Under the pieces are notes generated by a model, which was not told the DNA's origin, did not search any database, and was given only the letters and a program-made list of their open reading frames with translations. Positions 24,151-36,463 of a DNA stretch of 36,463 bases are shown piece after piece. How positions within the stretch are numbered: position 1 is the first letter of the stretch; each line of letters starts with the position of its first letter. The stretch comes from a virus: positions 1 to 36,463 of IMG/VR virus record IMGVR_UViG_3300044616_000313; one strand, written 5' to 3'. The position numbers were made by a program, and so were the translations under genes.

Positions 24151-24176
24151 TGCTACAGATAGGAACTTCTGTAGCA
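24151..24176 (+). terminator. Inverted repeat at the end of the late region
   Basis: TGCTACAG (24151-24158) and CTGTAGCA (24169-24176) form a perfect eight-pair stem with a ten-base loop, 24 bases after the stop of the last late gene. No T-run follows, so it is either a Rho-independent terminator of weak form or a protein-binding operator. Confidence 0.45.
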
Positions 24177-24216
24177 CCTTCGTACCATTGAGGTGCGGTG
24201 ATGTGGGTCAAGCGTC

Positions 24217-24396: not shown

Positions 24397-24439
24397 AAAC
24401 GTGTACGGGCAGGCGCGGGGGTGGCGATTTGCACACGGC

Positions 24440-24468
24440 TTGCGCTGGCGGTCGGGACCGGGTATGCT
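24440..24468 (+). promoter_or_regulatory. Early promoter upstream of the replication gene
   Basis: TTGCGC (24440-24445), a 17-base spacer and TATGCT (24463-24468) precede the replication gene by 131 bases. The same -10 is used by the promoter at 30571. The expected transcript start is near 24475. Confidence 0.5.
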
Positions 24469-24474
24469 GCGCGT

Positions 24475-24599
24475 GTCCTGCCGTTCGGCGGGATGAGCAG
24501 CGTGGCAGTTGCTCGACATTACGGCTAACCGGGCGCGGGGCGTGGGTTGCTTCGCCACGCTGCTCCCCGCCCCCGCCCCGGTGCTTTGGAGCGTCACGG
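24475..24599 (+). promoter_or_regulatory. Structured leader with small uORF before the replication gene
   Basis: The predicted transcript starts almost at a hairpin (TCCTGCC, loop GTTC, GGCGGGA; 24476-24493). A possible 11-codon leader frame runs from ATG 24493 to TAA 24526-24528. A GC stem follows (24535-24545 with 24555-24570, containing CGTGG/CCACG and GCGGGG/CCCCGC). GGAG before the ATG at 24600 is the SD. The layout would suit attenuation or translational control of replication. Confidence 0.4.
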
Positions 24600-25496: not shown

Positions 25497-25927
25497 GCCG
25501 CCCCGTGTACGAGCGACTGACCGACCAAATCCGACAAGGTGAAATCATCACCCGGTTGGAGCGTGCGGTGGGAATGCGTGCCAGCGCGACCCCGCGCCTG
25601 TGTGGGTGGGACTACGAGATGCTGCGGAACGATGGCACGCTGTCGGCGTTGGTGGAGGTGAAGTACCGCCGGAACACGATGCAGCACTACCCCACGTACA
25701 TCATCTCGCAGGCGAAGATCGTCGGCATGGCGCAAGCCGCACGGGAGCGCAACTGCATGGCGGGGCTACTGGTCGGATGGACTGACTGCATCGGCTGGCT
25801 GCGCGTGGACAATCGCAAGCGCAACGCATGGCCCGTCGTGCGCGGTGGCCGCAGCGACCGCAACGACCCCGCCGACATCGAATCCGTGTACGAGATTCCC
25901 ACGGAATATTTCCGGATCATCTATTGA
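25493..25927 (+). CDS. PD-(D/E)XK-type nuclease
   Basis: The 144-residue protein shows a nuclease core: a helix (YERLTDQIRQGEIITRLERA), Asp40 in WDYEML, then LVEVKYR (Glu55-x-Lys57). The helix that follows, YIISQAKIVGMAQAARERN, fits the restriction-endonuclease-like fold. Asp40, Glu55 and Lys57 would bind the metal and activate water. In this early block, next to the replication initiator and upstream of RusA and ERF genes, it may process recombination or replication intermediates. It overlaps the replication gene by four bases. Its stop codon lies within the -35 of the next promoter. Confidence 0.7.
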   Translation: MSRPVYERLTDQIRQGEIITRLERAVGMRASATPRLCGWDYEMLRNDGTLSALVEVKYRRNTMQHYPTYIISQAKIVGMAQAARERNCMAGLLVGWTDCIGWLRVDNRKRNAWPVVRGGRSDRNDPADIESVYEIPTEYFRIIY

Positions 25928-25952
25928 CCCCGGCACGGCGGGGCGTTAGGTT
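25924..25952 (+). promoter_or_regulatory. Leaderless-type promoter with C4/G4 spacer
   Basis: TTGACC (25924-25929), 17 bases and TAGGTT (25947-25952) are followed by six bases and ATG 25959. The spacer holds CCCCGGCACGGCGGGG, differing at one base from the 16 bases in the promoter at 32559. The -10 itself is weak, so an activator may be needed. Confidence 0.55.
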
Positions 25953-25958
25953 ACCCGC

Positions 25959-26192
25959 ATGGCAAACACCGATATCACCCAACAACTGCGGAACCACGCC
26001 ATGTATGTGCGCGATAGTTGGTCGGACATCACGCAAGCAGGCGAGTGGCACGCGAAGGACATGAATCTGTGCTTCATGCTTGAAAGCGCGGCGAGCATCA
26101 TCGACCAGTTGCGCGACCAACAGCGCGAGATGCGCGACCGCAACGTGCGCTTGATGTCGAAGATTCAGGAGATGGAGGTGAGGGAGCAATGA
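25959..26192 (+). CDS. Small helical protein of unknown function (77 aa)
   Basis: The 77-residue protein MANTDITQQLRNHAMYVRDSW... is almost wholly helical, with a C-terminal coiled coil (SAASIIDQLRDQQREMRDRNVRLMSKIQEMEV). It starts six bases after a -10 hexamer, so a leaderless message is likely. The next gene overlaps its stop (ATGA). No family is recognised. The pattern of short helical proteins with C-terminal coiled coils recurs at 27244 and 31503. Confidence 0.65.
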   Translation: MANTDITQQLRNHAMYVRDSWSDITQAGEWHAKDMNLCFMLESAASIIDQLRDQQREMRDRNVRLMSKIQEMEVREQ

Positions 26193-26548
26193 CCGAAGTA
26201 GCCGAATGGGACTTGACCGACGCGACCGACGAGGACATCGCGTTCATCGAACAGGAACACCCCAACGCCTTGAAGGGGATGATGGTTGCCAGCATCCGCA
26301 CCAACGCGGCCTACTCGCGCATTGAAGATGAAGGCACCGTCACGCAGAAGTGGGTGCTAGATGCCCGCATCGTGATGCGCGACGAGGACGAGCAGTATTC
26401 CGCCGTCACGTTCCACGCCGACGTTCCGTTCCGGAGCATGACGATTGAAGAAGCCCGCGACAGGTGGACCGGGATCGTGGCGCACTACTTCGTGCAGGAC
26501 TGGCTTCCGGTGTATCTCGCAGGAGGCTTTGACGATGAAATCGAATGA
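26189..26548 (+). CDS. Unknown acidic protein (119 aa)
   Basis: The 119-residue acidic protein begins MTEVAEWDLTDATDEDIAFIEQ and has central strands (VTQKWVLDARIVMRDEDEQYSAVTFHADVPF). It ends in a helix plus FVQDWLPVYLAGGFDDEIE. The start overlaps the previous stop (ATGA) and its end overlaps the start of the next gene by 14 bases. The alpha-beta pattern suggests a small globular domain. No family or motif is recognised. Its setting is the early small-gene string between nuclease and RusA. Confidence 0.62.
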   Translation: MTEVAEWDLTDATDEDIAFIEQEHPNALKGMMVASIRTNAAYSRIEDEGTVTQKWVLDARIVMRDEDEQYSAVTFHADVPFRSMTIEEARDRWTGIVAHYFVQDWLPVYLAGGFDDEIE

Positions 26549-26759
26549 ACTAGGCAGGCTGGTTGTCACCCTTGACAGCCGGGATGAGGCGATGACACTC
26601 ATGGCGCACACCGACAACGGCCCGATGCCTGTGTGGTTTCAGGTCGCGGAACCGAAGGGGTGCCGCTGCGGGTGCGGGGCGCACAAGGTGAAGGTGCGCG
26701 TAGTCGCGTCGAAGGCGGTGCGCCTTCAGCGCGTCCCGCTCACGGAAGTTCCGGAATGA
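26535..26759 (+). CDS. Small protein with CRCGC motif (74 aa)
   Basis: The ATG at 26535 has AGGAGG (26521-26526) upstream and gives 74 residues; the longer open frame before it is shadow of the preceding gene. The product has three strand-like segments and the motif KGCRCGCGAHKVKVRVV (about residues 41-57). Three closely spaced cysteines and a histidine there might bind metal. No family is recognised. Confidence 0.62.
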   Translation: MKSNELGRLVVTLDSRDEAMTLMAHTDNGPMPVWFQVAEPKGCRCGCGAHKVKVRVVASKAVRLQRVPLTEVPE

Positions 26760-26777
26760 CCACGGCGAAACTAGCCT

Positions 26778-26996
26778 ATGACCATGAAGCGACGGCACCC
26801 CGCCTACACGCTGGAGCGCGAACGGCGACGGCATCGGGATGCCGTGCGGCTGGTCGAAGCAGCGATGGCATCCGGCGAGTGCGAGATGGAGACAGGGCTA
26901 GAAGCCATTAGCGTGTTGTGGCATTGGTACGAAGTCACGGGGATGTCGATTGATCGACCATTGCCTGCATGGTTGCGGGCGCACAAGGAGACATGA
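26778..26996 (+). CDS. Basic helical protein of unknown function (72 aa)
   Basis: The frame opens with ATGACCATG, so the start may be 26778 or 26784. The 70-72 residue product is strongly basic at its N terminus (MKRRHPAYTLERERRRHRDAVR). It then has two helices (LVEAAMASGECEMETGLEAISVLWHWY) and ends DRPLPAWLRAHKET. No SD is obvious. Its last codons contain AAGGAG, which serves as SD for the next gene. Function is unknown. Confidence 0.55.
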   Translation: MTMKRRHPAYTLERERRRHRDAVRLVEAAMASGECEMETGLEAISVLWHWYEVTGMSIDRPLPAWLRAHKET

Positions 26997-27247
26997 TGCA
27001 ACCGAAGTCACTTATCCAAGAGGCCGAAAAGTTCCTTGCCTACCTGCGTGGGCTGGGCTTTGTCGGCAACCTTACGAAGTCGGGATGGGTCGCGTGCCAC
27101 GCCAACGGCGTGACGTTTACAGGGAACGCCAAGCGCATCCGGTTTGATTACGTGGTCATCACCGAAGGCGGGACCACGTGCATCTGCGAACGCGGCCCCG
27201 TGAGCATGGCATGGCTTGACGGCAAGGCGAAGGGGGCAGGACTGTGA
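26996..27247 (+). CDS. Unknown small protein (83 aa)
   Basis: AAGGAG ends at 26990, which favours the second of two adjacent ATG codons (26993 and 26996). The 83-residue product starts MQPKSLIQEAEKFLAYLRGLGFVG and has a helix followed by alternating strands (SGWVACHANGVTFTGNAKRIRFDYVVITEGGTT). This looks like a small alpha-beta domain. It ends MAWLDGKAKGAGL and overlaps the GTG of the next gene. No family is recognised. Confidence 0.6.
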   Translation: MQPKSLIQEAEKFLAYLRGLGFVGNLTKSGWVACHANGVTFTGNAKRIRFDYVVITEGGTTCICERGPVSMAWLDGKAKGAGL

Positions 27248-27612
27248 CTCCCACGGGATGCCCGGTCGGACTGTGCGACGATCAAAGCGCGTGCCGCTTC
27301 TGCGACAACGGGGGACGCAGGTACATGGACGGCGGCGAATTGCAGCGCGTGTGGATGCTCCACGTGAATGCCATGCGCGAGTGCCAACGTGCCGAGGCAC
27401 GCGCACGGACGCTGGATGACGATTGCACGATGTTGGCTCGTCGAAACGCGAAGTTGGTCCTTGAGGTTGACCAACTCCGCGATGAAATATCCGTGCTGCG
27501 TCGGGCGGTTGCGCCGCAACATCTGCAAGCGCAGATTGCCATGCTCACGTACGAGAACGAGCAGTTGCGCCAGCGCAGCCTCAACGCCGCGTTGTACGAG
27601 GGTGAGGGATGA
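27244..27612 (+). CDS. Zinc-ribbon-like plus coiled-coil protein (122 aa)
   Basis: The GTG start overlaps the previous stop (GTGA). The 122-residue product has an N-terminal cysteine cluster (CPVGLCDDQSACRFCDNG; Cys6, Cys11, Cys17, Cys20), which could form a small zinc site. A long coiled coil follows (about 38-115, with RNAKLVLEVDQLRDEISVLRR and LQAQIAMLTYENEQLRQR). It could be an adaptor for replication or transcription proteins, but no family is recognised. It overlaps the RusA gene (ATGA). Confidence 0.62.
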   Translation: MTPTGCPVGLCDDQSACRFCDNGGRRYMDGGELQRVWMLHVNAMRECQRAEARARTLDDDCTMLARRNAKLVLEVDQLRDEISVLRRAVAPQHLQAQIAMLTYENEQLRQRSLNAALYEGEG

Positions 27613-28073
27613 CGGCCAGCGAGTACGTCGTATGGGTCGATGGCGACCCGGCGGCGCAGGGGTCCAAGCGACTGGTGCGCCTGAAGGATGGCCGCAGCGT
27701 GATGCTGGAGAACAGCAAGCGCGTGAAGCCGTGGCGTGCGGCGGTAGCCGATGCCGCCCGCGAGCAGCGCGTGCAGCCGTTTCAAGGCGATGTCATCATC
27801 CATGCACGGGTGCGGTTCGTGCGACCGCAGAAGCACTACCGCAAGGACGGCAGCATCACCCCGTCCGCGTTGCCCCGACCGGGGTACGCCGACTGCGACA
27901 AACTGGCGCGTGCGATTTGTGACGCGCTGGCCGGGATTGCGTATGCCAACGACCGACAGGTGGCCGCGCTTGCCATTGAACGGGAATGGGCATCGGAGGG
28001 TTCCGGCCCCGGCGCGTGCATCCTGATTCGGCCATGCCCGCCAAAGGGCGGCTGGAACTACATAGCCCCCTAG
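27609..28073 (+). CDS. rusA: Holliday junction resolvase, RusA family
   Basis: The 154-residue protein carries the RusA pattern: an N-terminal GDPAAQGSKR, a basic strand region with VKPWRAAV and HARVRFVRPQKHY, then PGYADCDKLARAICDAL with Asp95, Asp97 and Lys98. AYANDRQV with Asp115 follows. In RusA enzymes the conserved aspartates bind metal and the lysine helps cut Holliday junctions symmetrically. Length is close to that of E. coli RusA. It is the last gene of the operon from 25959 and would resolve recombination intermediates before packaging. An ERF annealing gene lies downstream in the same early block. Confidence 0.85.
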   Translation: MTASEYVVWVDGDPAAQGSKRLVRLKDGRSVMLENSKRVKPWRAAVADAAREQRVQPFQGDVIIHARVRFVRPQKHYRKDGSITPSALPRPGYADCDKLARAICDALAGIAYANDRQVAALAIEREWASEGSGPGACILIRPCPPKGGWNYIAP

Positions 28074-28150
28074 ACCAACCCCGGCGCGGGATCTGACGCA
28101 ACGACCCGGCGAGTGCTGGGAAGGAGTGCCCGCGACCGGGGATTATCTTG

Positions 28151-28225
28151 CCCTAAAAGAAATCTGTGAAATCCATCGGAAATACCCCTCCACCCCCTTG
28201 AACCCCGCCGGAACGGGGGTACAGT
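28151..28225 (+). promoter_or_regulatory. Early promoter with conserved upstream AT-rich element (copy 1)
   Basis: TTGAAC (28198-28203), 16 bases and TACAGT (28220-28225) form the core. The spacer carries CCCCG...CGGGG. From 28151 to 28197 an upstream stretch (AAATCTGTGAAATC, GAAATACCCCTC) is nearly the same as at 32511-32558. It looks like an UP element or activator site. The expected start is G28232. Confidence 0.65.
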
Positions 28226-28231
28226 ACGGGT

Positions 28232-28286
28232 GTTGAGCAGGTCGCTCAACCCGAACCCGCCGGATGCGGGGGCAGGAGACACGCAG
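28232..28286 (+). promoter_or_regulatory. Tandem-hairpin mRNA leader (copy 1)
   Basis: The predicted mRNA starts with hairpin 1: TTGAGC (28233-28238), loop AGGTC, GCTCAA (28244-28249). Hairpin 2 follows: CCCGC (28256-28260), loop CGGAT, GCGGG (28266-28270). GGCAGGAGACACGCAG then leads to the ATG at 28287. The loops are kept in the other copies while the stems change with compensation. Confidence 0.7.
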
Positions 28287-28502
28287 ATGACCAAGACCTA
28301 CCGTAACCGTTTCGCGTCGATGGAGCGTCAGCCCTGTGGTGGTTGGATGGTGTTTTCGGAAGTCGCGGGCGTGCCCGTTACCGATGGGGGGCATCTCTGT
28401 GACGGGGAGCGTCAGCCGAAGGTGTATGCGACCTACGCGGCGGCTCGTGAAGTCATGGTCATGCTGACCGAGCGGTACAAGAGCATCATGCGCGGCTACT
28501 GA
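28287..28502 (+). CDS. Small protein of unknown function (71 aa)
   Basis: The ATG at 28287 follows the AGGAGACA leader end; the open frame before it crosses the promoter. The 71-residue product MTKTYRNRFASMERQPCGGWMVF... is alpha-beta in pattern, with VYATYAAAREVMVMLTERYKSIMRGY as a C-terminal helix. It is first in a two-gene unit with the DUF932 gene. A strong hairpin and a second CGGAC-loop leader follow it. No family is recognised. Its expression is set by the tandem-hairpin leader. Confidence 0.68.
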   Translation: MTKTYRNRFASMERQPCGGWMVFSEVAGVPVTDGGHLCDGERQPKVYATYAAAREVMVMLTERYKSIMRGY

Positions 28503-28511
28503 ATTACGAGC

Positions 28512-28562
28512 GGGGGCGGGCACGTTGCCCGCCCCCCTTCACCCCACGCCCCCGGACGGGGC
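28512..28562 (+). repeat. Intercistronic hairpin plus hairpin-2 leader (copy A)
   Basis: An 11-pair stem (GGGGGCGGGCA, 28512-28522, with its complement 28526-28536, loop CGT) is followed by TTCACCCC and hairpin 2 (GCCCC, loop CGGAC, GGGGC; 28548-28562). Then come AAAGAGACACG and the ATG at 28579. A near-identical 50-base copy lies at 33055-33104 between another gene pair. Confidence 0.75.
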
Positions 28563-28578
28563 AGAAAGAGACACGAAC

Positions 28579-29595
28579 ATGGCGCACGAAATCGAAACGA
28601 ATGACGGGCTGGTGCTGGCGAACAAGGGAGCATGGCACGGGCTTGGCACCGTGGTTCAGGGCGCACCGAACCCCTACGCCGCGCTCCGCATGGCCGGGAT
28701 GGAATGGGAAGTGCTGGAGTCGGACGCGCTCACGGGCACGTTCAACGCGGGCAGCACCGACGAACGCCGGGTGGTCACGGGTGACAGCAAGATGCTGGTG
28801 CGCTCCGACGATCACACCGTGCTGGGGGTGGTCGGCAAGGACTACAGCCCCGTGCAGAACAGCGCGCTGGCCGACCTTGCCTACGCCATGCGGAACGCCG
28901 ACGCGGAGAGCGGGGTGGAAGTCGAATCCGCCGGAAGCATCCGGGGTGGCAAGCGGGTGTTCATGCTCCTGCGCGCTCCCAGCGTGGACATGACGGGCAT
29001 GGGCGACGAAGCCCACCCCTACCTGCTGATCGCCAACGGGCACGACGGCACGCTGGCCCTGCGCGTGCAGCCGACGAGCGTGCGCGTGGTGTGCAGCAAC
29101 ACCTTCCACGCCGCCATCGGGGTGAAGCAGAAGGCGTGGTCCCACCGCCACACCCTGAACATCGGAACGCGGGTTGAAAGCCTTGCCGCCGAAATCAAGT
29201 TGTGGTTTAAGATGGTGGAGGACGGGCAGGAAACCGCCCGCGCACTTGCGGCGCGGCAGGTGAACCGCGAAGGCATCCGCAACCTGTGGGCAGACGTTCT
29301 CCTGCGGCTTGACGGACCCACGCCGCTCAACCCCAAGAACGGCTGGCAGGAGCGGCGCAAGGAACACGCCGTCGCCTTCCTCGCGCACGCCGCGCAGGTG
29401 TTTGACACGGAGGCGCGGCAGTACGGCGCGAACCTGTGGGTGGCCGCGAACGCCGCCACGAACGCCATCCAGCACCTTCGCGCCGGGTGGAGCGTGCGGA
29501 CGAAGGACGCGCAGGCCCGCGCCTACGCCGCATGGGACGGCACGACGGCGAACGCCACGCAGGAAGCCTTTGACGCTGCGCTAGCGTGCCTGTAA
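28579..29595 (+). CDS. DUF932 phage/plasmid-like protein
   Basis: The 338-residue protein starts MAHEIETNDGLVLANKGAWHGLGTVV, the typical opening of the DUF932 (phage/plasmid-like TIGR03299) family. The family blocks VVTGDSKMLVRSDDHTVLGVVGKDYSPVQNSALAD and VVCSNTFHAAIG follow. Its biochemical role is unknown. Members occur in early regions of phages and plasmids, often near recombination genes such as the ERF gene here. The start follows the CGGAC-loop hairpin and AAAGAGACA. The open frame upstream of 28579 lies in the intercistronic hairpins and is not coding. A terminator follows. Confidence 0.82.
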   Translation: MAHEIETNDGLVLANKGAWHGLGTVVQGAPNPYAALRMAGMEWEVLESDALTGTFNAGSTDERRVVTGDSKMLVRSDDHTVLGVVGKDYSPVQNSALADLAYAMRNADAESGVEVESAGSIRGGKRVFMLLRAPSVDMTGMGDEAHPYLLIANGHDGTLALRVQPTSVRVVCSNTFHAAIGVKQKAWSHRHTLNIGTRVESLAAEIKLWFKMVEDGQETARALAARQVNREGIRNLWADVLLRLDGPTPLNPKNGWQERRKEHAVAFLAHAAQVFDTEARQYGANLWVAANAATNAIQHLRAGWSVRTKDAQARAYAAWDGTTANATQEAFDAALACL

Positions 29596-29653
29596 CCTAA
29601 CCCGGTCGGGATGGCCACGGACGGCCCCCGACCCTTCACAAGCCCCCGGAAAG

Positions 29654-29692
29654 CGTGCCCCCTGTGCCCTTTGGCCGGGGGGCGCGTTATTT
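29654..29692 (+). terminator. Rho-independent terminator after the DUF932 gene
   Basis: CGTGCCCCC (29654-29662) pairs with GGGGGCGCG (29678-29686), with one G-T pair, and is followed by TTATTT. It closes the unit from 28287 and lies 50 bases before the next promoter core. Confidence 0.65.
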
Positions 29693-29741
29693 CACCCCCA
29701 ACAAAATGTAAGAAAATCTACCAACTTTCCCCTTCACCCCC

Positions 29742-29769
29742 TTGCACCCCGGCGCGGAGGGGGTATAGT
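29742..29769 (+). promoter_or_regulatory. Early promoter with C4/G4 spacer (copy 2)
   Basis: TTGCAC (29742-29747), 16 bases and TATAGT (29764-29769), the best -10 of the hairpin-leader class. The spacer contains CCCC and GGGG arms. Upstream 29700-29741 is A-rich (GTAAGAAAATCTACC) then C-rich, a diverged form of the element at 28151 and 32511. The expected start is G29776. Confidence 0.72.
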
Positions 29770-29775
29770 ACGTGT

Positions 29776-29830
29776 GTCGCGCAGGTCGCGCGGCCCGAAC
29801 CCGCCGGACGCGGGCGCAGGAGACACGAAG
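29776..29830 (+). promoter_or_regulatory. Tandem-hairpin mRNA leader (copy 2)
   Basis: Hairpin 1 is TCGCGC (29777-29782), loop AGGTC, GCGCGG (29788-29793). Hairpin 2 is CCCGC (29800-29804), loop CGGAC, GCGGG (29810-29814). GCAGGAGACACGAAG leads to ATG 29831. Compared with copy 1 the first stem is rewritten but still paired. Confidence 0.72.
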
Positions 29831-30178
29831 ATGACTACTACGAACACCGTTGCCGAACGCTTCAGCACCGTCGGGAAACGTGCAGCGCAGCATGACGCTG
29901 GCATCCTTTTCAAGATCGCCGTTGAAATCATGACAAAGGACATCGAAGCCTGTTCCGACACCGGGCGCATCAACACGCTGCTGGGCCTTGCCGCGCGTCT
30001 TTGCGGCGAACCCTACACGGCGTTGTACGAAGCCGCTGTCGAACTCGCGTCCAACGAGCGCACGGTAAGCCAGCGTTTGTGGGAGAACCGTCGCGGCTTG
30101 GCGCAGCACAAGCGCGATGAGTTCCACTTGCCCACCCCGAAGCACGACGTTGTTGAGCGTTCCCTTTGCGGCTACTGA
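29831..30178 (+). CDS. Helical protein of unknown function (115 aa)
   Basis: The 115-residue product MTTTNTVAERFSTVGKRAAQHDAG... is mainly helical (ILFKIAVEIMTKDIEAC, INTLLGLAARLCGEPYTALYEAAVELA, VSQRLWENRRGLAQHKRDEF). No enzymatic motif is visible and I recognise no family. It is first in a two-gene unit with the 106-residue gene at 30221 and is preceded by the tandem-hairpin leader. The start is fixed by AGGAGACACGAAG before the ATG. Confidence 0.68.
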   Translation: MTTTNTVAERFSTVGKRAAQHDAGILFKIAVEIMTKDIEACSDTGRINTLLGLAARLCGEPYTALYEAAVELASNERTVSQRLWENRRGLAQHKRDEFHLPTPKHDVVERSLCGY

Positions 30179-30189
30179 CACACCACAAC

Positions 30190-30204
30190 GCCCCCGGACG
30201 GGGC
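30190..30204 (+). promoter_or_regulatory. Hairpin-2 leader element before gene 30221
   Basis: GCCCC (30190-30194), loop CGGAC, GGGGC (30200-30204), then AGAAAGAGACAACGAC and ATG 30221. This copy lacks the preceding large intercistronic hairpin seen at 28512 and 33055. Confidence 0.68.
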
Positions 30205-30220
30205 AGAAAGAGACAACGAC

Positions 30221-30541
30221 ATGAACAAGCACTACTTCGTTCAGTTCTACAACGACAACGGCAACCACATCGGCACGCGCTCGCTCACCAGCAGCACGCA
30301 CGACGAGGCGCGCCGCGAAGCCCAAGCCCTGCTGCTGAACAGCACCGCCGAACAGGTGTGCGTGTTCGCCAACATCGGCAGCGAGATGTATCAAGCGTAC
30401 TTCATCGACAGGCAGACGGGCTACACCTACGGCCCGGATTGGGGTGCGTTGATCAAGGCGGAAGCAAGCGCATCCTGCGCGAGCGACCATCCCGGCGACG
30501 TTCCCGCATGGATGCGCGGCGAGCAGATGGAACTTGACTGA
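30221..30541 (+). CDS. Unknown protein (106 aa)
   Basis: The 106-residue product starts MNKHYFVQFYNDNGNHIGTRSL and reads as a small alpha-beta domain: strand, turn, strand, helix (HDEARREAQALLL), strand (QVCVFANIG), then YQAYFIDRQTGYTYGPDW and an acidic end. No family is recognised. It is second in the unit from 29831 and is preceded by the CGGAC hairpin. Its stop is followed within ten bases by a terminator-like hairpin that merges into the next promoter. Confidence 0.68.
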   Translation: MNKHYFVQFYNDNGNHIGTRSLTSSTHDEARREAQALLLNSTAEQVCVFANIGSEMYQAYFIDRQTGYTYGPDWGALIKAEASASCASDHPGDVPAWMRGEQMELD

Positions 30542-30551
30542 CCACGGAAAC

Positions 30552-30573
30552 GGGGCGATGCGACCGCCCCTTT
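30552..30573 (+). terminator. Short terminator merging into the next -35
   Basis: GGGGCG (30552-30557) and CGCCCC (30565-30570) pair around a seven-base loop. The following TTTACA is both the short T-run and the -35 hexamer of the ERF promoter. Confidence 0.5.
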
Positions 30574-30599
30574 ACACCCCCGCGTAACGGGGGTATGCT
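30571..30599 (+). promoter_or_regulatory. Early promoter for the ERF operon (copy 3)
   Basis: TTTACA (30571-30576), 17 bases and TATGCT (30594-30599). The spacer is CCCCC...GGGGG, a perfect five-pair inverted repeat with a seven-base centre. The expected start is G30606. Confidence 0.62.
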
Positions 30600-30605
30600 G
30601 AACGC

Positions 30606-30652
30606 GCCGCAGGTCGCGGCGACCGTACCCGGCGGGACCGGGGGAGACACCG
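30606..30652 (+). promoter_or_regulatory. Tandem-hairpin mRNA leader (copy 3)
   Basis: Hairpin 1 is GCCGC (30606-30610), loop AGGTC, GCGGC (30616-30620). Hairpin 2 is CCCGG (30628-30632), loop CGGGA, CCGGG (30638-30642). GGAGACACCG leads to ATG 30653. Both stems differ from copies 1 and 2 yet stay paired. Confidence 0.7.
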
Positions 30653-31468
30653 ATGAACCGAAGCGACTCAATCGCAAGCCTTGCCACCGCGCTGGCGAAG
30701 GCGAACTTGGAGATGTCGAACCCCGCGTTCGACAAGAAAAACTCGCACTTCAACAACGGCTACGCATCGCTCGCCGCCGTGCTGAACGCGATCCGGCAAC
30801 CGCTTGCGAAGCAGGGGCTATCGCTGATTCAGACGATCAGCACCGAACCCGGCTCCGTGACCATCACCACAAGCCTGATCCACGCATCCGGCGAATGGCT
30901 GTCGGCTGACGTATCCGTGGCCGTCCCCAACAACGCGACCGCGCAAGCCGTGGGGTCCGCAACGTCGTACATGAGGCGTTACAGCGCGCTGTCGATGTGC
31001 GGCATCGCGGGCGACAACGCCGACGATGACGGCGAGGAGGACCGCCGGGACCGCGAGGAGCGCAAGCCGATGGCCGCGCCGACACGCAGTCAGCGCACAA
31101 CCCGCGCCACCTTTCAACCGGAGAAGGCGCAAGGCGCAGCCCCAGCACCCGCCGCACCCCCGGCACCCCCGGCCCCGGCAAAGGCTGACCGCTTCCCCGA
31201 TGACTTCAACGGCGAAGTGACCGTGCGGCGCGTCACCCGCCGACCCGGACACCCGCACGCCATTCAGGTTGAAAGCGCGGATCACGGCATGGCGTGGGTG
31301 TCCACGAAGGTTGACGGGTACGCCGAGTGCCTAGAGGAAGCCGTGAACGAGAAGCGCATCGTGGAAGTGTGGCGCAACGGCAACGCGCTGGAACTCATCG
31401 CCGTGCGGAACTGCGCGCAGCCCGCACCCACCGGGGAGGAGGTGAACGCCAATGACCTTCCCTTCTAA
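30653..31468 (+). CDS. erf: ERF-family single-strand annealing protein
   Basis: The 271-residue protein has an N-terminal ERF domain (about residues 5-125), with SIASLATALAKANLEM, FNNGYASLAAVLNAIRQPLAKQGLSLIQT and ATSYMRRYSALSMCGIAGDNADDDGEE. ERF proteins anneal single-stranded DNA during phage recombination and genome circularisation. A Pro/Ala-rich linker (about 150-178) leads to a C-terminal beta-rich piece (FNGEVTVRRVTRRPG...NALELIAVRN) that may be an OB-like binding domain; this is inference. The start follows GGAGACACCG of the tandem-hairpin leader. It works with RusA (27609) and probably the PD-(D/E)XK nuclease. Confidence 0.85.
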   Translation: MNRSDSIASLATALAKANLEMSNPAFDKKNSHFNNGYASLAAVLNAIRQPLAKQGLSLIQTISTEPGSVTITTSLIHASGEWLSADVSVAVPNNATAQAVGSATSYMRRYSALSMCGIAGDNADDDGEEDRRDREERKPMAAPTRSQRTTRATFQPEKAQGAAPAPAAPPAPPAPAKADRFPDDFNGEVTVRRVTRRPGHPHAIQVESADHGMAWVSTKVDGYAECLEEAVNEKRIVEVWRNGNALELIAVRNCAQPAPTGEEVNANDLPF

Positions 31469-31502
31469 AAACTCTCCGCCCCGCCAGCATGAAAGGAATG
31501 CC

Positions 31503-31733
31503 ATGACCGACATCGTGAACCGCTTGCGGACGAACCGCGAGTGCCTTGCCCCGTGCCTAATGGACGAAGCCGCCGATGAAATTGTGCGCCTTGAGCGCGT
31601 CGTGCTGGACCTGATTGCCGAGCGCGACGAGGCGAGGCGGGAAATCGCTCATCGCGTGTTCGTTTCGGGCGGCTTGCTCCCAGCGGAGTTTGCGGAATCT
31701 CGCGGCTGGGATTTCTTCAAGCAAGACAACTGA
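31503..31733 (+). CDS. Small helical protein (76 aa)
   Basis: The ATG at 31503 has AAAGGAA upstream and gives 76 residues starting MTDIVNRLRTNRECLAPCLMDEAADEIVRLERVV. This opening, MTDIV.RLR with DEAADEI, is common in small phage proteins of unknown role. A coiled-coil-like helix (VVLDLIAERDEARREI) follows. An alternative ATG at 31452 would overlap the ERF gene and lacks an SD. The product ends SRGWDFFKQDN. Function is unknown. Confidence 0.65.
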   Translation: MTDIVNRLRTNRECLAPCLMDEAADEIVRLERVVLDLIAERDEARREIAHRVFVSGGLLPAEFAESRGWDFFKQDN

Positions 31734-31761
31734 CCGTCCACGAAGGACAGATTGGAACCCG

Positions 31762-31908
31762 ATGCCGAACCGCAAAGCCCCGAAGTCTAAAGCCAAGCCC
31801 AAGACCTCGCCCCAGCCCCGCGACGTTGGGAAGGAACTGGAGCGGTACGCGCTCATGCTTGCAATCATGCAACTCACGAACGAGCAAATCAGAAAGGCGA
31901 CCCCGTGA
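31762..31908 (+). CDS. Tiny basic protein (48 aa)
   Basis: A 48-residue frame starts at ATG 31762, with a Lys/Pro-rich N terminus (MPNRKAPKSKAKPKTSPQ) and a helix (VGKELERYALMLAIMQLTNEQIRKATP). The ribosome site is weak (TTGGAA). Its stop overlaps the GTG of the Gp157 gene, which argues for translation coupling and a real gene. Function is unknown; the basic tail suggests nucleic-acid contact. Confidence 0.52.
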   Translation: MPNRKAPKSKAKPKTSPQPRDVGKELERYALMLAIMQLTNEQIRKATP

Positions 31909-32417
31909 ACCTGTACGCCATCTCATCCGAAATGCAGGCGGTCATCGACGCGATGCTGGAGGGCGGCGCAGACTCCCCCGAAGCAATGGCCGCGCTGGAC
32001 GAACACCTGAAGGGACTGGACACCGCCCTAGAGGAGAAGGCGGAACGCTATGCCGCCGTCATCCTTGAACTGAAGGCACGCGCCGAAGCACGCGCACGCG
32101 AAGCCGACCGCATCCGCAACCTTGCCAGCATCGACAACAAGGTGATGGAACAACTGGCCGACCGCCTGAAGCACGCCATGACCGCCACGGGACGCACCCG
32201 GATCGACGGTGCCACCGTGCGCCTGTCCGTGGTCCGCAACGGGGGCAAGATCCCCCTGCGCGTCGATGTCGAAGCCGACCAACTGCCCACACGCTTCCAG
32301 CGCGTCGTTTCCGTCACGACCGCGAACAACGATGCCATCCGCGAGGCGTTGGAGGCAGGCGAAGCCGTCCCCGGTTGCGCGCTGCTGGAGCGTGGAACCC
32401 GCCTTGCCATCCGGTAG
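31905..32417 (+). CDS. Siphovirus Gp157-family protein
   Basis: The 170-residue protein fits the Gp157 family: MNLYAISSEMQAVIDAMLEG, a long charged helical region (LDTALEEKAERYAAVILELKARAEAREAD-type, about 38-75), then a beta-rich end with TVRLSVVRNGGKIPLRVD. Residues VPGCALLERGTRLAIR complete the C terminus. The family lies in early regions near annealing proteins of siphoviruses and was named from a streptococcal phage protein; its mechanism is unknown. The start is a GTG overlapping the previous stop. It closes the ERF operon and a strong terminator follows. Confidence 0.82.
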   Translation: MNLYAISSEMQAVIDAMLEGGADSPEAMAALDEHLKGLDTALEEKAERYAAVILELKARAEARAREADRIRNLASIDNKVMEQLADRLKHAMTATGRTRIDGATVRLSVVRNGGKIPLRVDVEADQLPTRFQRVVSVTTANNDAIREALEAGEAVPGCALLERGTRLAIR

Positions 32418-32457
32418 ACTCACCAGCAATTCGCGTGGCCCATCCCCACGCAGTCTC

Positions 32458-32509
32458 CCGCCCGCCGCGTGGACCCCATGAAGGGGAAACCCCGGCGGGC
32501 GGTTTATTT
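32458..32509 (+). terminator. Rho-independent terminator after the ERF operon
   Basis: CCGCCCGCCG (32458-32467) pairs perfectly with CGGCGGGCGG (32493-32502), with an inner CCCC/GGGG stem in the loop, and is followed by TTTATTT (32503-32509). It is the best terminator in the window. Confidence 0.82.
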
Positions 32510-32523
32510 GACCCTCAAATAAA
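32503..32523. promoter_or_regulatory. Perfect 9-bp palindrome between terminator and promoter
   Basis: TTTATTTGA (32503-32511) and TCAAATAAA (32515-32523) flank CCC. The left arm is the terminator T-run. The right arm begins the conserved upstream element of the next promoter. It could be an operator or a bidirectional terminator stem. Confidence 0.4.
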
Positions 32524-32586
32524 TCTGCGAAATCTGTCAGAAATACCCCTCTACCCCATTGCACCCCGGCATGGCGGGGGTACAGT
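32511..32586 (+). promoter_or_regulatory. Early promoter with conserved upstream element (copy 4)
   Basis: TTGCAC (32559-32564), 16 bases with CCCCGGCATGGCGGGG in register, and TACAGT (32581-32586). The upstream 32511-32558 stretch closely matches 28151-28197, with differences mainly at single bases. The expected start is G32593. Confidence 0.68.
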
Positions 32587-32592
32587 ACGTGT

Positions 32593-32645
32593 GTCGCGCA
32601 GGTCGCGCGGCCCGCAGCCCCCGGACGGGGCCACAGGAGACAGCC
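32593..32645 (+). promoter_or_regulatory. Tandem-hairpin mRNA leader (copy 4)
   Basis: Hairpin 1 is TCGCGC (32594-32599), loop AGGTC, GCGCGG (32605-32610). Hairpin 2 is GCCCC (32617-32621), loop CGGAC, GGGGC (32627-32631). CACAGGAGACAGCC leads to ATG 32646. Confidence 0.72.
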
Positions 32646-33044
32646 ATGAGCAACAACGACACCAACACCTACAATCCGTTCGCCACCGTCGAAGCGTTCA
32701 ACGCCTTCCCGACCCCGGACGAACTTCAGCACGGACACTTGGGCCGCTGGGCCGGGGATATGCAGGTGTTCAAAATCAACCTAATGCAGGTTGATTTGGG
32801 ATGGTGCGATGTTGAGGTGTGGGCGCGCCACGCCAGCGCGGACGCTAGCACCGACTTTCGCACCGTTACCCTGAATGTGATGGACGTTGGCACCAACGAC
32901 GCAGAGGTGGCGCGCGCAGCGTTCCGCGCCGACCTGACGCGGCATGGATGCACCGAACCCGAAGTGGCGTACATCGTGGCCCGCAGCAAGGTGGAGGCCA
33001 CGCCGGAATACACCCGATTTATGTGGGTGGAAGATTTGTCCTGA
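32646..33044 (+). CDS. Unknown protein (132 aa)
   Basis: The 132-residue acidic product starts MSNNDTNTYNPFATVEAFNAFPTPDEL. It has a central beta stretch (MQVFKINLMQVDLGWCDVEVWARH, then FRTVTLNVMDVG) and a C-terminal helix (DAEVARAAFRADLTRHG). It ends EYTRFMWVEDLS. No family is recognised. It is first of a two-gene unit with the gene at 33119. The start is set by AGGAGACA of leader copy 4. Confidence 0.68.
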   Translation: MSNNDTNTYNPFATVEAFNAFPTPDELQHGHLGRWAGDMQVFKINLMQVDLGWCDVEVWARHASADASTDFRTVTLNVMDVGTNDAEVARAAFRADLTRHGCTEPEVAYIVARSKVEATPEYTRFMWVEDLS

Positions 33045-33054
33045 CGCACACGCC

Positions 33055-33104
33055 GGGGGCGGGCACGTTGCCCGCCCCCTTCACCCTACGCCCCCGGACG
33101 GGGC
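33055..33104 (+). repeat. Intercistronic hairpin plus hairpin-2 leader (copy B)
   Basis: The 11-pair stem with arm GGGGGCGGGCA (33055-33065, complement 33069-33079) and hairpin 2 (GCCCC 33090-33094, loop CGGAC, GGGGC 33100-33104) repeat the block at 28512-28562 almost base for base. CACAGGAGACAGCC and ATG 33119 follow. The two copies flank unrelated genes. Confidence 0.75.
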
Positions 33105-33118
33105 CACAGGAGACAGCC

Positions 33119-33445
33119 ATGAGCAGCGAGAACACGGGCATGATCGTGAGCCTGAAAACCAAGATTGTGCAGAAGCGTTGGAAGGGCTACACGCGCCGCT
33201 TCCGCTCAAGCGTTGAATACGGCACCTTTCACCGCGTTGCAATGACCGTCCGGATGGCTGACGGGCGCATGGTGTGGGGGTACATCAGCAATGCCGTGCG
33301 CGACCCCGCCAAACTCGCAGACTGCCCGGTGAAGGTGGGAGACACCATCACCATCACCAGCACCATCGCGCAATCGGATTCGGGCACCATGTGGTTTCCG
33401 CTTGAACCCGGATGCCGACTGCACTACACGACCGCGACGGAATGA
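33119..33445 (+). CDS. Beta-rich protein of unknown function (108 aa)
   Basis: The 108-residue product starts MSSENTGMIVSLKTKIVQKRWKGYTRRF and is basic at its N terminus. Successive strands follow (RVAMTVRMADGRMVWGYIS, VKVGDTITITSTIAQS, TMWFPLEPGCRLHYTT), a pattern that could form an OB-like or small barrel fold. A nucleic-acid-binding role is therefore possible but unproven. It is the second gene of the unit from 32646 and is followed two bases after the stop by a consensus promoter. Confidence 0.66.
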   Translation: MSSENTGMIVSLKTKIVQKRWKGYTRRFRSSVEYGTFHRVAMTVRMADGRMVWGYISNAVRDPAKLADCPVKVGDTITITSTIAQSDSGTMWFPLEPGCRLHYTTATE

Positions 33446-33446
33446 G

Positions 33447-33475
33447 TTGCACCCCCTGCGCGACGGGGGTATAAT
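33447..33475 (+). promoter_or_regulatory. Leaderless consensus promoter for the candidate regulator
   Basis: TTGCAC (33447-33452), 17 bases and TATAAT (33470-33475), then six bases and ATG 33482. The spacer holds CCCCC...GGGGG. It combines the leaderless geometry with the C/G palindrome of the early promoters. Confidence 0.72.
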
Positions 33476-33481
33476 GAACGC

Positions 33482-33736
33482 ATGAGACACCCGATTGAAT
33501 CGCCGCATGATGTGCGGACGGCGATCCTCGCCGCCCTGCACGAACAGGGACGCACCCGGTACGCATTCGCCAAAGACTGCGCCACCGCCAACCTGTGCCA
33601 GCACAAGACCGTGGACAGCATCCTGACCAACCCGGAAGCCCTGTCCGCGACCATCCCCACCCTGCCGACCGCCATCACCCTGCTGCAACACGCCGGGTAT
33701 GAACTGGTCGCCGTGTCACGCAAGGGACCACGCTGA
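33482..33736 (+). CDS. Small DNA-binding-like regulator candidate (84 aa)
   Basis: The 84-residue product starts MRHPIESPHDVRTAILAALHEQG and is helical throughout. RTRYAFAKDCATANLCQHKTVDSILTN is compatible with a helix-turn-helix pair, and TLPTAITLLQHAGYELVAV resembles the last helices of small phage repressors. The call is tentative because the pattern is not a textbook HTH. Its promoter is the closest to consensus in the window, with the ATG at the expected +1, as for lambda cI from PRM. It lies between the early block and the terminase genes, so it may switch expression between them. Confidence 0.5.
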   Translation: MRHPIESPHDVRTAILAALHEQGRTRYAFAKDCATANLCQHKTVDSILTNPEALSATIPTLPTAITLLQHAGYELVAVSRKGPR

Positions 33737-33762
33737 AAGACGTTGCTACGATGGAGGGCGAC

Positions 33763-34185
33763 ATGGCCGACCACGCAAACACAGGGGGGATGGAGGGGGT
33801 TTCGGATGGACCGCCCACCCGCAAGGCGGTACGGCGGCACCTGAACGTCATCGAACAGGCGGTCTACGGCGGTTGGGAACTGCCCGACCACGCATCCAAG
33901 ACCATCCCGCAGACCCTTCAGGGCATCCTTGATGACCCCAACGCATCGGTGCGGGACCGCATCCGGGCATCAGAATGCATGATGGCCCTGCGCCGGGACC
34001 GTATGGACGCAGCCGTGCAACTGGACCGCATTCAGCGATTGGACGCAGGCACCGCCACCGACCGCGTGGAGGTGGTGGAAGGCATCACCGATGCCACCCT
34101 GAACGCCGTCGCGCAATCGCTTGTCGCACCCGCCAAGCCCGCCCCCAAGCCGTGCCGAAGCCCAAAGCGCAAGCGCAAGCCCTGA
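33763..34185 (+). CDS. Small terminase subunit candidate
   Basis: The ATG at 33763 has GGAGGG just upstream; an earlier ATG at 33751 is part of that site. The 140-residue protein has a helical body (PTRKAVRRHLNVIEQAVYGGWELPDHASKTIPQTLQGILDD, then ASVRDRIRASECMMALRRDRMDAAVQLDRIQ). A Pro/Lys/Arg-rich tail ends it (KPAPKPCRSPKRKRKP). This size and order before the large subunit fit a small terminase, which binds the packaging site and activates the motor. A similar helical pattern is seen in other environmental phage small subunits. Its end overlaps the large subunit start by 34 bases. Confidence 0.68.
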   Translation: MADHANTGGMEGVSDGPPTRKAVRRHLNVIEQAVYGGWELPDHASKTIPQTLQGILDDPNASVRDRIRASECMMALRRDRMDAAVQLDRIQRLDAGTATDRVEVVEGITDATLNAVAQSLVAPAKPAPKPCRSPKRKRKP

Positions 34186-35618
34186 CCCGCCAGCAGGCGG
34201 TCGAAGCCGCCCGTGAGAACCCGGCGGCGTTCGTGGCCCTGTGCATCGGGAAGCCCGTAAGCGCGCTCCAGCGCGAAATGCTGCACCACGCGCTTGTCCA
34301 CCTTGACTGGTACGCAGAAATCCCACGCGGCCACGCCAAGACATCCACCTACGCCTATCTCGTCGCATGGTGGCTAGGGGTCCGACCCGATGCCCGGTTC
34401 AAGATCGTTTCACAGAACGATGAAACGGCATCGGCTACCAGTCGGTTCATCCGCGACATCATCCGCAGCCGACCGTACCAAGCCGTGTTCCCAAACGTCA
34501 CCCTGAAGCCGGGTGAGGACACCGTGACGGCATGGAGCATCGTTTCGCCGGGACTAGGGCCGCGCCGTGACCCCTCCGTGCAGGCTTCCGGCGTGTTCGG
34601 TCGAACGGGTGGACGCGCAGACGTAATTTGGTTCGATGACTTGTGCGACCTACGGAACTCCGTGCTGCAACCCGCCCTGCGCGAGCAGGTGAAGGAAGCC
34701 GTATCGAACGTGTGGCTCCCGATGCTGGACCCGTCCGGGCCGCACCCCAGCCGGGTATGGCGCAGCGCAACCCCCTTCCATGTCGATGACCTGACCGCCG
34801 ACTGGCGCAAGGAATGCGAAGGCAACGGCACCCTGCTTCGCCGCCCGTGCATGGGACTGCAAAGCCCGTGGCCGGAAGTATTTACGCCTGACCTACTCGC
34901 CAAGCGTCGCAGCGCGATGGGGCCGATGGGCTACGCCCGCGCCTACGAACTGGTCCCCCTGTCCAGCGACCTGCTGGTGTTCCGCCCTGAATGGGTGCGG
35001 TACTACGACCCGGCAAAGATTCCTGCCGTGACCCGGACCATCGCCGCGATTGACTGGGGCTATGGCAAGAAGGCGCAGGAGCGGGATGACCCCGACTACA
35101 GCGTGTGCATCGTGGGGGAAGTGGACTTCCACCGCAACCTGTACCTGACCGACATCCTGCGCGTGCGAGAGGCGTTCCCGGTGTTCGCAAAGCAGGCCGC
35201 GTCCCTGCTCTCCCGCCGGGGAGCGTCCGTGGTGCTGGCCGAAGCCAACGGGCCGCAGAAGGGCATCTTCGACTCCTTCCGCGACATGACCACGCAGCCC
35301 ATGCTGGCCGTGGAGCGATCCAGCGACAAGCACCTACGCGCAGCCGGGGCGCAGCCGTTCGTGGAGCAGGGCAAATTGCTGTTCCCGCAATCGGGCGACG
35401 GCAGGGTGTTGCCCGCCTTCCAGCCCGTCATGGACGAAATGATGGCGTTCCCGGCAGGCTCCCACGATGACACCGTGGACGTAGTGGTAGACCTGTGCGG
35501 GGAAGCCGTGCGCGGCTCGCTGACGGCGACGGAGCGCAACGCGGGCAGAATTGAACGGCCTGACGCAATCGGGCAACTGTTCGGCGCGCGTGCCCCCAAG
35601 CGTCCGTTCTTTGCGTGA
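34152..35618 (+). CDS. Large terminase subunit
   Basis: I take the GTG at 34152 as start (488 residues); the frame is open earlier, but that part is an Arg/His-rich shadow of the small subunit gene. The protein has an ATPase with a Walker A-type motif in EIPRGHAKTSTY (about 54-65) and Walker B VIWFDDL (about 159-165). A C-terminal nuclease domain carries AAIDWGYGKK (about 298-307) and SHDDTVDVVVDL (about 437-448), whose aspartates would bind metal. It cuts concatemeric DNA and pumps it into the procapsid. Family type (cos or headful) cannot be told from sequence alone. The modular gene follows 38 bases later. Confidence 0.87.
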   Translation: MPKPKAQAQALTRQQAVEAARENPAAFVALCIGKPVSALQREMLHHALVHLDWYAEIPRGHAKTSTYAYLVAWWLGVRPDARFKIVSQNDETASATSRFIRDIIRSRPYQAVFPNVTLKPGEDTVTAWSIVSPGLGPRRDPSVQASGVFGRTGGRADVIWFDDLCDLRNSVLQPALREQVKEAVSNVWLPMLDPSGPHPSRVWRSATPFHVDDLTADWRKECEGNGTLLRRPCMGLQSPWPEVFTPDLLAKRRSAMGPMGYARAYELVPLSSDLLVFRPEWVRYYDPAKIPAVTRTIAAIDWGYGKKAQERDDPDYSVCIVGEVDFHRNLYLTDILRVREAFPVFAKQAASLLSRRGASVVLAEANGPQKGIFDSFRDMTTQPMLAVERSSDKHLRAAGAQPFVEQGKLLFPQSGDGRVLPAFQPVMDEMMAFPAGSHDDTVDVVVDLCGEAVRGSLTATERNAGRIERPDAIGQLFGARAPKRPFFA

Positions 35619-35619
35619 A

Positions 35620-35650
35620 GCATTGCATGGGCAATGCAGGCGGATACCAT
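35620..35650 (+). promoter_or_regulatory. Leaderless-type promoter with inverted repeat, before the modular gene
   Basis: TTGCAT (35623-35628), 16 bases and TACCAT (35645-35650) are followed by six bases and ATG 35657. The -35 lies in an inverted repeat, GCATTGC (35620-35626) and GCAATGC (35631-35637), which could be an operator or the hairpin of a terminator for the terminase operon. Confidence 0.5.
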
Positions 35651-35656
35651 CCGCGC

Positions 35657-36463
35657 ATGGCCGACATCGACCTGACCCCCACGGAGGAGATGGCATCGAA
35701 TGCCGCCCGTGGGCTGGAACTGCGCGAGAAGCACGGACGCGGCGGAACCGCCGTGGGCGTTGCCCGCGCACGCGACATCAAGAACCGGAAGAACCTGTCC
35801 CCCGACACCGTTCGGCGGATGCACTCGTTCTTTTCGCGTCACGCCGGGAATGAAGCCGGGGGTGAGGATGATGCGGGGTATATCTCGTTCCTGTTGTGGG
35901 GCGGGGCCGCAGGACGATCATGGGCAAAGCGCAAGAGCGCACAACTTGACAAGGACGAAAACGCTATGAGCGACACGCGCAAGGAAATCATGGAACGACT
36001 TGGCAGCGCGGGCAAGGTGAAGTCGGGCCGCGCGGAACAGGTGATGCGCGATGGCACCGTACACCTTGATTTCCGCGCCGCGAAGGAATGGCTGGCGGGC
36101 GTGACGGATTCTGCCCTGCGGTACATCATCAACGATGCACAGCAGGCGGCGAAGGCGATGCCGGATGGGAACAAGTGGAACTACTACCACGATCTTTCGC
36201 TGACAGCGCAAGACGAACTCCAGCGGCGCAAGCGCAAGTCTGCCCGCCCCGGCGCGAAGGCAAAGTTTGGCAATGTAGATCGGCTGGACAGCCTCATGGC
36301 GGCTGTCTACCGAGCCTTGAAGAACAACGACAAGGAAGCCGCGAAGCGGCTCATGGCAGATGCCGCAAAAGAGATCGACAGCAACACCCCGCCATATATG
36401 CTGGCGGAATATAAGGATCTAAAGCGATCTTTCTCCCGCCCCGGCGCGAAGGCGAAGATGGCG
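35657..36463 (+). CDS. Modular RPGAK-repeat protein, 5' part of an origin-spanning gene
   Basis: The ATG at 35657 lies six bases after a -10 hexamer. This part encodes residues 1-226 of the 624-residue joined protein and then repeats the first 127 bases of the window. Residues 1-64 are a basic N-terminal region with MADIDLTPTEEMASNAARGLELREKHG-type sequence, rich in Arg/Lys (ARARDIKNRKNL). Residues 65-103 have a small aromatic segment (YISFLLWGGAAGRSW). Residues 104-193 form a helical domain starting MSDTRKEIMERLG. The first linker, KSARPGAKAKFG, is at 194-205, and a helical module (NVDRLDSLMAAVYRALKNND) follows. An internal ATG at 35966 (MSDTRK) could be a nested start. The gene continues at base 1. 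It is encoded between the large terminase and the portal. Function is unknown. Confidence 0.82.
   Translation, partial: MADIDLTPTEEMASNAARGLELREKHGRGGTAVGVARARDIKNRKNLSPDTVRRMHSFFSRHAGNEAGGEDDAGYISFLLWGGAAGRSWAKRKSAQLDKDENAMSDTRKEIMERLGSAGKVKSGRAEQVMRDGTVHLDFRAAKEWLAGVTDSALRYIINDAQQAAKAMPDGNKWNYYHDLSLTAQDELQRRKRKSARPGAKAKFGNVDRLDSLMAAVYRALKNNDKEAAKRLMADAAKEIDSNTPPYMLAEYKDLKRSFSRPGAKAKMA
36337..36463. repeat. Right copy of the 127-bp terminal direct repeat
   Basis: These 127 bases repeat 1-127 exactly. Removing one copy gives a circle of 36,336 bp. The length suggests an assembler k-mer of 127 rather than a physical terminal repeat. Confidence 0.93.

Follow-up and report, generated by a model that had tools for sequence, protein, structure and literature searches.

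We found that a leader of two tandem RNA hairpins is repeated before many genes in one group of phages, and covariation among its copies supports a functional RNA maintained by compensatory change. The stretch of DNA analyzed (the window), a 36,463-base virus record from IMG/VR, carries the gene set of a tailed phage, including genes for a portal, a major head protein, tail proteins, a RusA-like resolvase, a primosomal protein, a terminase, an ERF annealing protein, and a Gp157/Gam-like protein. Four promoter-like sites lie between positions 28198 and 33119, and behind each come hairpin 1 (HP1), a CCG linker, hairpin 2 (HP2), a AGGAGACA-like Shine-Dalgarno (SD) sequence, which is GGAGACA for the ERF gene, and the start codon; three further genes have HP2 but neither promoter nor HP1. 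HP1 is a conserved RNA hairpin directly after the -10 box, one per tagged promoter, and HP2 is a conserved hairpin directly 5' of the SD, one per tagged gene in the window group. The original prediction had described this arrangement, with both hairpins behind four promoters and HP2 alone before the genes at 28579, 30221, and 33119; direct reading confirmed both, stems and positions included, and all three HP2-only sites were also matched at E ≤ 0.001 by the covariance model described below. We hold, with middling confidence, that the leader is a modular cis-acting RNA element on early phage mRNAs, made up of a 5'-end tag and a hairpin close to the ribosome-binding site. The features of the window leaders are as follows.

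28198 to 28225, + strand: promoter of leader A (TTGAAC, 16 nt, TACAGT), with a CCCC/GGGG inverted repeat in the spacer; other leaders similar
28232 to 28250, + strand: HP1 of leader A, GTTGAGC[AGGTC]GCTCAAC
28251 to 28253, + strand: CCG linker of leader A, complementary to CGG of loop 2
28256 to 28270, + strand: HP2 of leader A, CCCGC[CGGAT]GCGGG; SD AGGAG at 28274, gene start 28287
28548 to 28562, + strand: HP2-only site, preceding the DUF932 gene (ATG 28579)
29776 to 29794, + strand: HP1 of leader B, GTCGCGC[AGGTC]GCGCGGC
29800 to 29814, + strand: HP2 of leader B, CCCGC[CGGAC]GCGGG; gene start 29831
30190 to 30204, + strand: HP2-only site, preceding gene 30221
30605 to 30621, + strand: HP1 of the ERF leader, CGCCGC[AGGTC]GCGGCG
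30628 to 30642, + strand: HP2 of the ERF leader, CCCGG[CGGGA]CCGGG; ERF gene start 30653
32593 to 32611, + strand: HP1 of leader D, GTCGCGC[AGGTC]GCGCGGC
32617 to 32631, + strand: HP2 of leader D, GCCCC[CGGAC]GGGGC; gene start 32646
33090 to 33104, + strand: HP2-only site, preceding gene 33119

Covariation and distribution of the leader

Relatives of the window were gathered by their DUF932, terminase, and ERF proteins and by a DNA pattern, with seven records fetched in pieces. A covariance model (R1) was built from 28 leaders; its training rows include all four window leaders and none of the three HP2-only sites. Searched against the 36,463-base record at E ≤ 0.001, R1 found exactly seven sites, the four leaders (57 to 77 bits) and the three HP2-only sites (24 to 34 bits), with three weaker matches at E values of 0.08 to 0.97. 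The folding energy of the four window leaders is unexceptional (z of -0.1 to -1.7). In DNA this rich in G+C, a single fold is unremarkable, and the case therefore rests on covariation.

Among 27 distinct 21-mers of HP1, all 135 cells of the five inner pairs hold a standard pair. Two-sided changes occur in four of these pairs, with as many as four pair types per pair, and the covariation score is 0.599, versus 0.161 for shuffled alignments and at most 0.133 when the pairing is slid. For HP1 and HP2 together (28 leaders), 94.6% of cells are paired (100% for HP1 and 89.3% for HP2), two-sided changes occur in 9 of 10 pairs, and the score is 0.688 versus 0.162. One copy, the ERF leader of record G014 (L318:6780, GCCGTC[GCGGT]GACGGC), was removed from alignment A1 since MAFFT had misplaced it; it does pair. 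R1 also found leaders in phages outside the training set (L031, L426, L428, L429, L436, L442, and L469), as well as leaders there with HP1 only (L425, L428, L430, and L443). In these HP1s (17 rows, 15 distinct; set A10, which left out L436 with its six-base loop), the inner five pairs are standard in 74 of 75 cells and the score is 0.571, versus 0.176 shuffled and at most 0.155 slid. This set may retain some bias, as R1 rewards pairing, while the promoters before those matches lie outside the model. Thus, the proposal that stems which vary yet stay paired mark a functional RNA, and the covariance-model check suggested for it, are borne out on relatives' copies.

The R1 search gave 52 matches, comprising 33 leaders, 7 HP2-only sites, and 12 weak matches (E of 0.003 to 0.97); one weak match, antisense to the terminase region of G005, reaches an E value of 4.8e-4 and was taken as chance. 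On 57 loci there were 26 matches, 16 of them judged to be leaders, on nine loci; L464:3069 and L473 are possible leaders, and the other matches judged, L435 and L468 aside, are non-leader or partial. A further 56 loci gave nine matches, of which L031 (two) and L162/L163 are leaders. No Rfam 15 family matched the window, L318, L321, L323, or L325 at the gathering threshold, and a permissive Rfam search of window positions 26000 to 36463 gave one weak, unrelated match only.

The leader is present in the IMG/VR relatives at two to nine copies per record of at least 27 kb (eight examined). Promoter-borne leaders number four in the window, four in G001, three in G002, four in G004, three in G005, six in G006, and two in G009, with four in the 12.7-kb fragment G003 and one in the 24-kb fragment G007. 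G014 has nine, the ninth being its ERF leader, seen by script only, and three of the nine have HP1 without HP2. An HP1 loop of the form ANGYC recurs in phages whose terminase is 72 to 75% identical to that of the window. Cultured phages gave no megablast match, and their terminase, ERF, and DUF932 matches were all below 60% identity. A leader pattern run against viral and genome collections (loci from L189 up) gave at least 129 matches, nine of them with a stem of at least 4; three of these nine have this promoter layout and are viral contigs already in the relatives set, and the six genomes behind the other six gave no R1 match at E ≤ 0.05 (best E of 0.052; 150 candidates scored in five). In the first viral pattern scan, the matches listed were mostly chance.

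More distant ERF leaders differ in their 5' hairpins, and in some of them an HP2-like hairpin with the loop CGTT or CGAG comes next, for example, TGACAC[ATGTC]GTGTCA and then GCGCGG[CGTT]CCGCGC. Tandem-hairpin or HP2-like leaders lie upstream of ERF in L337, L338, L340, L341, L345, L346, L351 to L354, L356 to L358, L360 to L364, L368, and L373. Most of these contigs had no R1 match at E ≤ 1. The pattern suggests that tandem-hairpin leaders and ERF may be an old association.

Position, loops, and linker of the hairpins

HP1 follows the -10 hexamer by 5 to 8 nt in 29 of 31 leaders and by 2 and 3 nt in the remaining two, which have 10-bp stems. At the usual distance between a -10 box and a transcript start, transcription would begin with the first base of HP1 or a neighboring one, and HP1 is thus probably at the 5' end of the RNA. 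Judged by consensus, the promoters are weak: of the four, a scan picked up only that at 30571, and it showed no excess over shuffled sequence; support for the promoters comes from their recurrence at a fixed place before HP1. We also noted inverted repeats in the promoter spacers (28198 to 28225, 29742 to 29769, 30571 to 30599, 32559 to 32586, and 33447 to 33475), of the form CCCC..GGGG in the window group; on the minus strand of L031, upstream of 1360, the spacer before one leader has ACCTG..CAGGT. The spacer repeat is a possible transcription factor site between -35 and -10.

The promoter at 33447 to 33475, before gene 33482, is of the leader type, is followed by no leader hairpin, and ends 6 nt before the ATG, so this gene may be nearly leaderless; a similar layout occurs in L021, L024 to L028, and L034. 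The description of the element as phage-wide was too strong, given this promoter and the placement of the leaders found in the early/replication module.

The HP1 loop AGGTC had been called invariant, and it is so in all leaders found in the window, G001, G002, G004, and G007; elsewhere, the consensus is approximately ANGYC, with loops such as AAGTC, ATGTC, ATGTT, AAGCC, AATCC, AGGTT, ACAAC, ACTAC, ACGAT, GCGGT, GCGTT, ACGAG, and others. The loop ARGTC is found in 19 of 21 non-ERF HP1s despite 17 distinct 6-bp stems and in two of six ERF HP1s (Fisher P of 0.011, indicative only, as the rows are related); a seventh ERF row left out of the count, the G014 ERF leader, also lacks ARGTC. Between a promoter and an SD-ATG lie 36 of 73 ANGYC hairpins of at least 6 bp, versus 0 of 178 hairpins with six control loops in the same sequences, a check that includes training sequences and uses a motif picked after the data were seen. 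HP1 also stands alone as a leader in G014, L425, L428, L430, and L443. We take the constraint on the loop as a sign that some factor recognizes it. By eye only, loop 1 showed no consistent complement to the SD or to a phage small RNA.

Two nt, or sometimes one, separate the CCG linker from HP2, and the linker can pair with the CGG that opens loop 2. Linker and loop triplets, read by eye and with the L428 linker ambiguous, are complementary at all three positions in 30 of 36 leaders and have one mismatch in the other six. The exchanges are CCC/GGG in two G014 leaders and UCG/CGA in the L353-type and L429 leaders. Permutation P values are 6e-5 for all leaders, 0.009 to 0.015 at 19 rows (collapsed by contig and type), and 0.11 for nine later leaders. 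The HP2-only sites have no CCG at the linker place. A CCG follows HP1 in 4 of 12 HP1-only leaders and is thus not exclusive to tandem leaders. A small pseudoknot between the linker and loop 2 is likely but unproven. The linker-loop pairing fits modestly better than the loop-loop kiss between GUC of loop 1 and GAY of loop 2 that had been proposed before; for the kiss, 78.6% of cells are paired and two of three pairs show two-sided changes but in only one and two rows. We rejected the kiss (A2 columns 18 to 20 with 41 to 43) as weak, as HP1 occurs without HP2 and G014 has loops such as CGGAA.

A second structured leader, at window positions 24469 to 24566, directly follows a promoter-like site and precedes the gene of the primosomal protein, which has an in-frame ATG at 24600. 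Its relatives are at L330:17070-17181, L328:335-446 (-), L325:632-743, L326:2179-2290 (-), L323:15238-15349 (-), and L321:1687-1798. A 12-bp closing helix surrounds a conserved core and occurs in three sequences, all paired (GAGCAGCGTGGC/GCCACGCTGCTC, GAGCGGGTGCAA/TTGCACCCGCTC, and GAGGCTTGCGGC/GCCGCAAGCCTC). This leader has no Rfam match.

Genes and cassettes behind the leader

In the close group, a leader and then a core gene (DUF932, family 03, or family 06) occupy three genome positions. An accessory gene may intervene, and the core gene then has its own HP2-only site. At the first position, the accessory gene is of family 00 in the window, 07 in G001 and G003, and 08 in G002, with none in L008; at the second, it is of family 02 in the window, 05 in G001, and 08 in G003, with none in L008, L015, or G002; at the third, it is of family 05 in the window, with none in G001 or G003. 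In L018 the third-position leader is followed by family 09, and no leader is listed at this position in G002 or L008. The same accessory families recur at different positions, and HP2 alone marks second genes. HP1 thus goes with the promoter, whereas each gene keeps its HP2, and the genes with HP2 alone look like core genes that an inserted cassette has separated from their leader. In cluster O mycobacteriophages, the part of the published account cited here describes recombination at short repeats that flank gained or lost genes (PMC4351075). Accessory genes that enter between leader and core gene, each with an HP2, would be a concrete route to expression signals in mosaic phage genomes.

We also observed a G+C-rich hairpin of 10 bp, without a T run, between accessory and core genes, which might be a terminator or a processing site. 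The same hairpin precedes the HP2-only sites of L331 and L329, with the loop GCGTT in some copies. Its window copies are as follows.

28512 to 28536, + strand: G+C-rich perfect hairpin, GGGGGCGGGC[ACGTT]GCCCGCCCCC, between the accessory gene and the HP2-only site
33055 to 33079, + strand: second copy of the G+C-rich hairpin

Proposed function and comparison with known systems

In the function that we propose, HP1 would form the very 5' end of the transcript and seal it against 5'-end-dependent decay; a 5' hairpin is reported to impede RppH and to stabilize mRNA in the section of PMC3997798 drawn on here. The ANGYC loop, kept while stems drift, would be recognized by a trans-acting factor of phage or host, and the tagged mRNAs would thereby form one set that is treated alike. 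HP2, probably tightened by the pairing of the CCG linker with loop 2, would keep the ribosome site free of other pairing and carry the translation signal of its gene as a portable unit. A tag common to phages with terminases approximately 60% to 99% identical to that of the window would be a genome-scale post-transcriptional signal.

Several points limit or weigh against this reading. Two of five HP1 measures were reached by some of the shuffles, namely, the number of pairs with two-sided change (28 of 500) and the number of further pair types (56 of 500). The first rows were partly picked for leader-like appearance, which is why the second test, on other copies, matters. In three of the window's four leaders, the minimum-free-energy fold instead has the CCG paired with GG in the SD. 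Recombination may homogenize the repeats of one genome and could thereby preserve similar loops in the absence of selection, although the stems of a given genome do differ. In ERF leaders the stem persists but frequently the loop does not, and a factor that binds the loop is therefore not required in every case. This last point bears on a purely mechanical leader, with HP1 as a shield for the 5' end, HP2 as insulation of the ribosome site, and no factor reading the loop. Such a leader would account for the 5'-end position of HP1 and for ERF leaders, including the distant L166 to L168, that keep a hairpin with unrelated loops, but in non-ERF leaders the loop is conserved above most stem positions, and ANGYC recurs in the phages at 72 to 75% terminase identity; we consider this account possible though doubtful. 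An antiterminator that modifies RNA polymerase, like the put RNA of phage HK022, is improbable. The resemblance lies in two stem-loops directly after promoters, as in putL in the portion of PMC9378689 cited; however, HP1 and HP2 occur apart, HP2 standing also before promoter-less genes, and HP2 is tied to start codons, while the element, tied to the SD, is shorter, has two to nine copies per longer record, and sits among terminator-like sites that show no excess (7 found versus 9.1 expected at 24000 to 34500). Least probable, and in our view very unlikely, is a DNA-level element, an operator or recombination joint, with an incidental RNA fold. Cassettes do swap behind leaders and promoter spacers do hold an inverted repeat, but the arms co-change while the asymmetric loop stays, the opposite of a fixed-arm operator, and the element keeps one orientation and one place with respect to the promoter and the start codon.

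A further alternative is a Csr-like translational operator, in which a phage CsrA-like protein binds the GGA in loop 2 and the SD. A CsrA-like protein had been suggested as the binder; as a general one it is not supported, as GGA is in loop 2 of 21 of 28 aligned leaders and absent from the other seven, and AGGTC has no GGA. At E ≤ 1, the Pfam CsrA model matched nothing in eight of nine records searched, the window among them. The ninth, G014, encodes a CsrA-like protein of 68 aa (L318:5062-5265) whose Pfam CsrA match of 23.3 bits is below the cut-off of 27, and this keeps the idea alive; several G014 SDs also read ACAAGGAGACA. In addition, a conserved protein of 74 to 78 aa with a CRCG motif, similar in pattern by eye, is encoded in six of six longer window-group records (the window, G001, G002, G004, G005, and G006). 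Its window copy is as follows.

26535 to 26759, + strand: 74-aa conserved protein with a faint CsrA-like pattern, a candidate trans factor only

The two proteins match each other only at an E value of 1.9, and in hhalign the window-group protein has a 4% probability against CsrA, rising to 21% with the G014 protein added. The best CsrA-family chain in PDB for the G014 protein has an E value of 0.14, behind unrelated designed proteins, and the window protein has no Pfam family at E ≤ 10. AlphaFold models are poor (predicted local distance difference test [pLDDT] score of 62 to 63), and the best Foldseek match, for the first model only, has an E value of 0.18 and is not CsrA. We therefore regard the Csr operator as unlikely. 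Also unlikely, by a slightly smaller margin, is a small RNA-binding protein of the phage, perhaps related to CsrA but diverged and cysteine-bearing, that would read the ANGYC loop, the HP2 pseudoknot, or both on every tagged early mRNA, with HP2-SD units letting new genes join this phage-run post-transcriptional regulon by recombining behind an existing leader.

We found no published description of this leader in the open-access literature searched. Its nearest published analogy is the start-associated sequences of cluster K mycobacteriophages and their extended form (SAS/ESAS), which the original prediction had raised. As described in the part of PMC3203893 cited, these also recur many times within the non-structural half of the genome, directly before the start codons of unrelated genes, and they are also two-part, with a start-linked part and, on about half, an upstream inverted repeat. 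The likeness is apt as analogy and goes no further: the cluster K inverted repeats do not generally support RNA pairing, by the same part of that account, whereas here the arms covary and pair, HP1 is fixed to the promoter, and the sequence is unrelated, the 13-bp motif GGGATAGGAGCCC having no window match at up to two mismatches (0.79 expected).

The 5'-terminal stabilizing stem-loops of ompA and papA, cited in the portion of PMC3997798 used above, resemble HP1 in lying at or near the transcript 5' end; those belong to single host genes, whereas here a conserved-loop motif extends over many phage genes, often with an SD hairpin. HK022 put RNA is alike in layout only, in that early phage transcripts begin with two stem-loops. 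It is approximately 70 nt long, acts on RNA polymerase to suppress termination with no dedicated protein factor, and occurs as putL and putR, and the features described in the cited part of PMC9378689 include no ribosome-site role; here, in contrast, HP1 and HP2 occur separately and HP2 adjoins the SD. The T4-type gene 32 leader pseudoknot and gene 43 hairpin are likewise phage mRNA leader folds for translational control; they are autoregulatory sites of single genes in the section of PMC3014915 consulted, whereas the linker-loop pairing here is 2 to 3 bp and modestly supported. Known phage mRNA control includes such single-gene leader folds. Thus, the element is best called a phage mRNA leader element with unusual reiteration and modularity.

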